Shown piece after piece: positions 31,505 through 32,669 of a stretch of DNA of 32,669 nt (its first letter is position 1; every line of letters begins with the position of its first letter). Below the pieces are notes generated by a model. The model saw nothing but the letters and a program-made list of their open reading frames with translations. It made no database searches and was not told the DNA's origin. Source of the stretch: Deltaproteobacteria bacterium (lineage in GTDB: Bacteria > Myxococcota_A > Polyangia > Polyangiales > B10-G4); contig QMMC01000016.1 of NCBI GenBank assembly GCA_003647065.1, positions 1 through 32,669 on the forward strand, written 5' to 3'. The translations under genes were made by a program, and so were the position numbers.

Positions 31505-32227
31505 ATGGCCCCCCGGATTCTCATCGTCACGCCGACCTACGACGAGCGTGAGAACCTCGAACCCTTCCTGGCGGGGGCGTTCGAGGCGCTCCCGGAGGCG
31601 CACGTCCTCGTCGTCGACGACAACTCTCCGGATGGGACCGGGGACCTCGCGGATTCCATCGCGGCCGAAGACCCCCGGGTTCAGGTCATGCATCGACCGG
31701 GCAAGCTCGGCCTGGGGAGCGCCTACCTGGACGCGTTCCGCTGGGGTCTCGAGCGCGACTACGAGATCATTCTCGAGATGGACACGGACCTGAGCCACGA
31801 CCCCCGCTACCTGCCGGACTTCATTCAAGCGATCGAGGACGGCGCCGGCGTGGTCATCGGCTCCCGGAACGTGCCCGGCGGGGGCGTCGAAGGCTGGGGC
31901 CTCGGACGCCACGTCCTGTCCAAGGGGGGCTCTCTCTATAGTCGAAGCATCCTCGGGCTCTCGGTCCGCGATCTGACGAGTGGCTACAAAGCGTTTCGTG
32001 CCGACGTGCTGCGGGCGATCAGCCTCGATGAGGTGCACTCCGAAGGTTACTCGTTTCAAATCGAGTTGACCTACCGCTCCCTGCGCAAGGGCTTCCGCGT
32101 CCAGGAGGTCCCGATCATCTTCGTCGATCGACGCGCCGGCGAGAGCAAGATGAGCCGGAAGATCTTCGCCGAAGCCATCATGATGGTGTGGAAGCTGCGG
32201 TTCGACGCCCTCACCGGCAAGTTCTGA
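31505..32227 (+). CDS. polyprenol monophosphomannose synthase (GT2)
   Basis: A 240-residue family 2 glycosyltransferase of the dolichol/polyprenol-phosphate mannose synthase type. It would transfer mannose (or another hexose) from a nucleotide sugar to a polyprenol phosphate at the inner face of the membrane. Motifs are VTPTYDERENL, VVDDNSPDGTG (37-47), the metal-binding MDTDLSHDP (92-100), RDLTSGYKAFRADVL and VPIIFVDRRAGESKMS. It consists of the catalytic domain only, with no C-terminal membrane segments, as in actinobacterial Ppm catalytic units and unlike GtrB. The ATG at 31505 starts the fold directly. It is divergent from the TPR gene across 154 bases with no clear promoter. Its stop codon lies in the first copy of a 10-base duplication leading into the terminal repeat region. 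Confidence 0.92.
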   Translation: MAPRILIVTPTYDERENLEPFLAGAFEALPEAHVLVVDDNSPDGTGDLADSIAAEDPRVQVMHRPGKLGLGSAYLDAFRWGLERDYEIILEMDTDLSHDPRYLPDFIQAIEDGAGVVIGSRNVPGGGVEGWGLGRHVLSKGGSLYSRSILGLSVRDLTSGYKAFRADVLRAISLDEVHSEGYSFQIELTYRSLRKGFRVQEVPIIFVDRRAGESKMSRKIFAEAIMMVWKLRFDALTGKF

Positions 32228-32234
32228 ATCGCGC

Positions 32235-32359
32235 TGAATCGCGTCCACTCACGCCATTCGCCGGCTTACGTCCTCGGGACCTCGGTCGCCGTACGAAAGG
32301 TACGGCTCGGTCGGCCCCTGCGGGCGCGCTCGCCAGCTGACGCAAGTGGACGCGATTCA
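32235..32359. repeat. 125-bp element with terminal inverted repeats (MITE/REPIN-like)
   Basis: TGAATCGCGTCCACT (32235-32249) is the exact reverse complement of AGTGGACGCGATTCA (32345-32359), and similarity continues a few bases inward. At the centre GCCGTAC (32288-32294) pairs with GTACGGC (32300-32306) over a GAAAG loop. No protein is convincingly encoded. Ends like these suggest a short non-autonomous mobile element or a REP-doublet-like hairpin. No direct target duplication was established. Confidence 0.7.
32323..32355. repeat. dispersed repeat end, copy 1
   Basis: GGCGCGCTCG, four variable bases, then CTGACGCAAGTGGACGCGA (32337-32355). The same arrangement recurs at 32637-32669, where it is cut by the window edge. 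The two 19-base cores are identical and in the same orientation. Confidence 0.85.
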
Positions 32360-32636
32360 CCCAACTGAGGATTTGGGGACGCGTGGTTGCTTAATTGTCT
32401 TACGGGCCCGACGACCATGCCGGTCGCACCAGCTCCGGTCCCAATCCCGGCTCCGGTCGACTGACGTCGCCCTTTCGCCTTCTTGGGACCTCCGGTCGAC
32501 TGACGTCGCCCTTTCGCCTTCTTGCCGACCTGCGGGCTCACACTGCCGGCTCCGCTACCGCCAGCCCTGCCGGCTCTGCCTGACTGCGTCAGGCTGCCGC
32601 CTCGGGGCTGCCGTTCGCGGAGCCTTCTTGTTGAGG
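32360..32636. other. non-coding spacer between repeat copies
   Basis: No convincing gene. It holds a short AT-rich piece (near 32383-32402), a 39-base tandem duplication (32451-32528), two CTGCCGGCT units, and a perfect hairpin GCCTGAC-TGC-GTCAGGC (32578-32594). A minus-strand frame of 91 codons crosses it but looks incidental. Confidence 0.6.
32451..32528. repeat. 39-bp tandem duplication
   Basis: Two adjacent 39-base units, 32451-32489 and 32490-32528, agree perfectly over their first 35 bases (beginning CTCCGGTCGACTGACG). The length is a multiple of three, but there is no credible gene here. Confidence 0.9.
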
Positions 32637-32669
32637 GGCGCGCTCGGCGACTGACGCAAGTGGACGCGA
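32637..32669. repeat. dispersed repeat end, copy 2 (truncated by window edge)
   Basis: GGCGCGCTCG, four variable bases, then CTGACGCAAGTGGACGCGA (32651-32669) repeats the right end of the inverted-repeat element. The remaining terminal bases lie outside the window, so it cannot be seen whether another full element follows. Confidence 0.8.

Follow-up and report, generated by a model that had tools for sequence, protein, structure and literature searches.

The window analysed here is a whole contig of 32,669 nucleotides (QMMC01000016.1) from a genome of the order Polyangiales (G000). Close to its right end lies a 125-base palindrome (32235-32359) consisting of two arms, a core and an apical hairpin, immediately preceded by the stop codon TGA (32225-32227) of a gene on the plus strand. 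The features of this region are as follows.

The palindromic element and its neighbours

31505-32227, plus strand: upstream host gene, family-2 glycosyltransferase of 240 aa (ORF list; PF00535, E 5.7e-27)
32224-32243, plus strand: tandem direct repeat, two units of CTGAATCGCG, which duplicates the stop codon at the left edge of the element
32235-32261, no strand assigned: left arm, complementary to the right arm (inverted repeat, folds)
32262-32332, minus as the better-folding strand: conserved core CGGCTTACGTCCTCG...CTGCGGGCGCGCTCG (exact pattern match G000:C16:32262-32332; strand comparison)
32288-32306, no strand assigned: apical hairpin GCCGTAC-GAAAG-GTACGGC (sequence, folds)
32333-32359, no strand assigned: right arm (inverted repeat, folds)
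32373-32405, plus strand: module M2, TTGGGGACGCGTGGTTGCTTAATTGTCTTACGG, a neighbour of the hairpin and not part of it
32437-32490, plus strand: module M3, a small hairpin repeat of about 54 nt with complementary, copy-specific ends
32491-32529, plus strand: second, partial copy of M3
32636-32669, plus strand: another copy of the element's right portion (91% over 34 nt), truncated where the contig ends

The outer ends of the element pair perfectly over 15 bp (32235-32249, TGAATCGCGTCCACT, with 32345-32359), and the central hairpin is formed by GCCGTAC (32288-32294) and GTACGGC (32300-32306), both as described in an earlier note on this DNA. The copy of one terminus that this note had placed about 314 bases away is found at 32636-32669, and its naming of the upstream gene as a mannosyltransferase is consistent with the family-2 glycosyltransferase match. 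The palindrome exceeds chance expectation: folded as RNA, the minus strand reaches -84.5 kcal/mol (z -8.3), a value attained by none of 200 shuffles, and the plus strand reaches -64.6 kcal/mol (z -3.4). A covariance model built from 17 G000 copies, of which the window copy is one, scores the latter with 137 bits.

Several other small repeats accompany the element. Its doubled left edge is also present at locus L011. M2 trails many element copies in G000 (e.g. L008, L010, L018) and recurs elsewhere, sometimes together with tandem partial duplications of the right half of the element, and it resembles the GGGGWSAS type among the terminal inverted repeats of tyrosine transposases (motif description in PMC3733652). 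M3 is nested inside several element copies (L002, L012, L021, L023, L028, L030), with end pairs such as GGTCCC/GGGACC, GTGGC/GCCAC and GTCAGC/GCTGAC. In addition, another repeat of about 150 bp (..GATGGAGCGTGAGACACAAGCGAGGTGGTCTCGG..) adjoins several copies in G000 (L006, L007, L016, L021). A Twister-P5 match at 32410-32450 (18.9 bits, below the gathering threshold of 37.6) is probably due to chance.

Distribution, conserved centre and position at stop codons

About 35 full copies were detected by BLAST and the covariance model in the fragmented, incomplete 7.1-Mb assembly of G000, which bears out the suggestion of the earlier note that the family is repeated in the genome; the element is neither unique there nor part of a longer gene. 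The 17 copies of the model share a rod-like structure of 41 pairs, in which both sides have changed at 19 pairs and a one-sided standard change occurs in only one sequence-pair. Of 184 genomes of the order, 38 contain matches to a strict pattern of the roughly 70-nt core (CGGCTTWCSTCCTCG-hairpin-CTGCGGGSGCGCTCG), whereas the reversed control pattern gave no match in any of the 184. Among 56 genomes of the order other than G000, the covariance model matched 28. Copy numbers by the strict core pattern are highest in G038 (90) and G097 (84), the latter being the sole carrier among the sampled genomes of its family. In a sample of the phylum, 27 of 379 genomes matched, a few of them outside the order, so that the distribution in other Myxococcota is patchy; the named carriers among the matches listed belong to Myxococcota or 'Deltaproteobacteria', apart from a few bins named only Proteobacteria or uncultured bacterium. 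Neither the plasmid and phage collections contained DNA similar to the element, nor did Rfam yield a match over the window element or at 10 other loci, and a search of the open-access literature found no published account of the family. Apparently, this is an undescribed hairpin family spread over many Myxococcota, a phylum-wide repeat not recognised before, which can reach about 90 copies in a genome and modifies the 3' ends of ordinary genes.

The centre of the element is common to the genomes, while the arms of about 25 nt are typical of a genome or subfamily, unrelated between genomes, and complementary to each other in essentially all complete copies. Accordingly, the core of about 70 nt sits between differing terminal repeats, namely AGAGCTGTC.. 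(with TGA/TCA duplications), GGCACCTGGCAG.., GGAGGCCGG.. and GTAACCGTTCAGG.., and at several loci of G022 (including L109, L135 and L222) it lies within a larger palindromic element with the ends GTAACCGTTCAGGGGGG...CCCCCCTGAACGCTTAC. We take these G022 ends, GTAACCGTTCAGG as well as GTAACCGTTCAGGGGGG...CCCCCCTGAACGCTTAC, to be IS66-like. This architecture inverts the usual rule for transposons, since here it is the ends that are exchanged while the centre stays the same.

Most copies stand directly behind a gene. When gene ends were called with a home-made caller based on codon usage rather than with a published gene finder, a same-sense stop codon abutted the left arm in 78 of about 107 classified copies, nine of which also touched a convergent stop, and an antisense stop alone was found in three. 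The abutting same-sense stop most often ends exactly 24 nt before the core. Likewise, among the 24 scorable rows of G000, 18 copies directly follow stops in sense and one in antisense orientation. Insertion thus occurs mostly in or against stop codons, so that the gene is left intact. Moreover, the downstream gene is convergent at 60% of these sites, compared with 33% at other gene ends (p 1e-5). One copy (L284, G004:C15) has tRNA-Ile on one side and tRNA-Ala on the other, as read from the sequence by eye, and is probably located in the spacer of a ribosomal RNA operon.

In genomes of three families, the element stands at the stop codon of the gene for B12-dependent ribonucleotide reductase (RNR), with unrelated arms (L233, L235, L236, L256, L258, L260), and two more genomes have remnants of it there (L234, L239). 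Deep conservation was considered for these shared copies. Their arms can, however, be similar to the arms of further copies within one genome (as in G038); because of this resemblance, and of a rough estimate that allows recurrent insertion, the sharing of the RNR stop is not used as proof. The stop-codon site, the conserved centre with exchangeable arms, the phylum-wide family and the strand asymmetry described below all go beyond the earlier note.

Movement and strand asymmetry

A comparison of empty and filled sites, as proposed in the earlier note, was possible for five aligned copies in G004 and its close relative G012, and revealed four clean empty sites and one remnant consisting of arms without the core. 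In the G043 subfamily (AGAGCTGTC...GACAGCTCT), identical trinucleotides flank 18 of 22 copies (TGA in 13, TCA in five), and true stop codons are found at 11 of the 22 (seven sense, four antisense). Two other copies of G043 and G022, whose outer ends differ, have TAA and TTA as flanks, and in the genus of G004 the element and a short tail are followed by a repeat of the TAG stop, which fits a CTAG-like duplication. Target duplications therefore differ between genomes, and G000 itself has no clear one. The empty sites in a close relative, together with the target duplications in G043, show that the element has moved. Such duplications also offer a simple account of how some mobile repeats can land exactly on stops without harm to the gene.

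The two strands of the element are not equivalent. The one-by-one mismatches in the arms, read on the plus strand, are mainly C.A (133) and T.C (79), and read on the minus strand they become G.U and G.A; among arm pairs, G.U accounts for 1.4% on the plus and 8.6% on the minus strand. Since shared ancestry inflates such counts, group means were compared instead: the minus strand is the better folder in 24 of 27 genome groups when RNA energies are used (p 5e-5) and in 25 of 27 when DNA energies are used (p 6e-7), these groups being incompletely independent owing to the common core and to the relatedness of some genomes. For 49 diverse copies, the consensus of the minus strand had an energy of -42.3, compared with -29.0 for the plus strand, and pairing reached 82% over the outer 18 pairs, with 3.6 Watson-Crick types at each pair, whereas a control with permuted 3' halves gave 47% (maximum 52%). 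A correction of the palindrome at the DNA level was rejected as the reason for the low share of G.U on the plus strand, the mispairs being arranged such that G.U and G.A fall on the minus strand. The better folding of the minus strand in the groups and in the consensus indicates that what is preserved appears to be the folding of the strand antisense to the abutting gene, a result that both RNA and single-stranded DNA fit. The asymmetry makes it possible to test whether bacterial hairpin repeats are maintained in their capacity as single-stranded DNA or in that of RNA, which is a long-standing question for REP, ERIC and YPAL.

A mobile hairpin and its alternatives

Taken as a whole, the element is probably a non-autonomous, MITE-like mobile hairpin of about 125 nt, with a conserved core and with arms that serve as terminal inverted repeats. 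As in MITEs, we found dispersed non-coding copies, terminal inverted repeats, target site duplications (in G043, and not clear in G000) and filled and empty sites. Of the two classes proposed earlier, MITE- or REPIN-like, the first is largely supported by repetition, empty sites and target duplications, whereas the link to REPINs and RAYTs is not, as most copies lack GTAG and the two Y1 genes of G000 do not adjoin the element. The same three observations agree with the view that the unit has no coding sense and is apparently moved by an enzyme supplied elsewhere.

The arms are probably the terminal repeats of whichever transposon moves the element in each genome. DDE transposase groups differ in target preference, and those cutting at TNA or (C)TAG targets would act in trans; TGA and TAA fit a TNA target and TAG a CTAG target. 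Part of the reason why stop codons are hit so often would then be that all three are target sequences in their own right, and this, together with the loss of insertions inside genes, would explain part of the position at stop codons. Selection may preserve the hairpin of the antisense strand, whether in single-stranded DNA or in RNA, and one orientation would prevail for this reason.

A transposase with matching ends was looked for, as the earlier note had recommended. The Y1 genes of G000 have no adjoining element, and in G043 the 25-nt arm also borders a transposase remnant, VDAGADVLVRVNRTSMPL, which is similar to DDE transposases (one genome, 29 codons). A relative of this remnant gave a weak, sub-threshold match to PF01609, and plasmid homologues are annotated as transposases. 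G043 carries an internally deleted relative with a transposase remnant, which we take as a pointer to the mobilising enzyme rather than as proof of it. No intact autonomous element was found, and the ends of plasmid-borne transposase relatives are unlike the G043 arms. An all-against-all blastp of 733 called proteins, made in search of a recurrent neighbour, gave housekeeping-type orthologues and paralogues only and no recognisable recurrent transposase.

The closest published kin in kind are YPAL and ERIC (PMC2229807) and the stop-supplying REPs (PMC3733652). By the description in PMC2229807, YPAL/RU-2 of Yersinia is about 168 bp long, is known from Yersinia and Erwinia, and makes duplications of 3 to 26 bp; like the element, it is a small non-coding palindromic mobile repeat with target duplications and with filled and empty sites between relatives. 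By the same description YPAL/RU-2 is not A+T-rich, has targets with dyad symmetry and is said to be co-expressed with upstream genes, which we count as likenesses. Judged from this description of YPAL, the element differs in its conserved core with exchangeable arms and in its strand asymmetry (PMC2229807). The ERIC, RUP and Correia MITEs, as presented there, are non-coding, hairpin-forming units of 100-160 bp whose movement is attributed to IS transposases acting in trans (IS630-Spn1 in the case of RUP), and ERIC acts on mRNA in one orientation; they have recognisable family-wide ends with TA termini (PMC2229807), whereas the element has a conserved centre and ends that differ from genome to genome.

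Two features stand against a simple MITE reading, since a transposon should conserve its ends and not its centre, and since targets that are symmetric, like TSA or CTAG, would not lead one to expect a strong orientation bias. To account for this bias and for the conservation of the core, an additional, putative strand-specific role is needed. It is conceivable, albeit doubtful, that the strand-specific hairpin core is a portable module at the centre of unrelated transposon ends, which may be recognised through the folding of its antisense-side strand and may direct insertion towards stop codons; one core between different ends across genomes would then mean that the module, rather than the transposon, is the unit that persists.

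As another tentative possibility, the element could encode or itself be a structured RNA read from the minus strand, antisense to the abutting gene, such as a small antisense RNA or an element in the 3' UTR of convergent genes, with movement only as a by-product. The higher share of G.U on the minus strand (8.6% against 1.4%), its mismatches, which are mostly G.A, the z of -8.3 of the window copy on this strand and the enrichment of convergent neighbours would all agree with this. However, the downstream gene is co-directional in 40% of the stop-abutting copies, where the minus strand therefore has no obvious transcript, Rfam gave no match, and DNA energies yield the same asymmetry, so that RNA is not required.

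A transcription terminator or 3' stabiliser of the upstream mRNA acting on the sense strand is unlikely. The precise site after stops, the sense orientation and the enrichment before convergent genes would suit such a role, as would the ordinary-looking terminators that several element-free relatives have at the RNR gene. In contrast, the sense strand is the poorer folder, no U-tract follows the 3' arm at the RNR loci (by eye, uncounted), the copy between the two tRNA genes apparently lies within a ribosomal RNA operon, and several co-directional downstream genes begin 13-58 nt past the core end. On the strength of the strand folding, the missing U-tract and the tRNA-spacer copy, a sense 3' UTR or terminator was rejected as the main account, and the proposal in the earlier note of an RNA 3' structure for the mannosyltransferase mRNA is not supported, as the antisense strand folds better.

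A giant REP- or REPIN-like element moved by a RAYT (Y1) transposase is very improbable. REPs of the GTAG/CGTC type with RAYTs measure 20-40 bp, carry a terminal tag and are recognised as single-stranded hairpins; similar to the element, they are palindromes downstream of genes and between convergent genes, and the termini of GTAG REPs often provide a TAG stop codon (PMC3733652). Unlike in these REPs, GTAG stands at the hairpin foot in only 9 of 137 copies, neither of the two Y1_Tnp genes in G000 is flanked by the element, and the latter is about 125 nt long.

There is little to recommend a folded single-stranded recombination site like integron attC, used as the bottom strand by a tyrosine recombinase. 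The geometry is shared, with a hairpin right after a stop, covarying arms, a stabler bottom strand, which in attC is the active one, and a length near that of long attC sites, but the R'' (RYYYAAC) and R' (GTTRRRY) boxes occur together in none of 137 copies, copies are dispersed behind housekeeping genes and not in cassette arrays, and the G043 target duplications point to a DDE enzyme. Another origin, put forward in the past for repeats of Nannocystis exedens, a myxobacterium of the same phylum, is the integration of retron msDNA hairpins (Lampson and Rice 1997, as cited in PMC6868368). These are long DNA hairpins as well, and msDNA-like repeats were reported, yet they are a most implausible source: among 16 reverse-transcriptase matches from 10 carriers, a single one has the element nearby, inserted where the gene ends (3'), and the carrier G030 has no such match. 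Attribution to integron attC, GTAG REPs or retron msd was hence rejected, the features of membership having been looked for and not found.

Two further loci may be recorded here. At L062 (1280-2480), a Y1-type transposase gene lies between the inverted repeats GGGGACGGTATAAACTTTCTCACTTT and AAAGTGAGAAAGTTTATACCGTCCCC, and at L268 (1825-1896, G038) a reverse transcriptase gene carries an inserted copy of the element at its 3' end, into which its reading frame runs.
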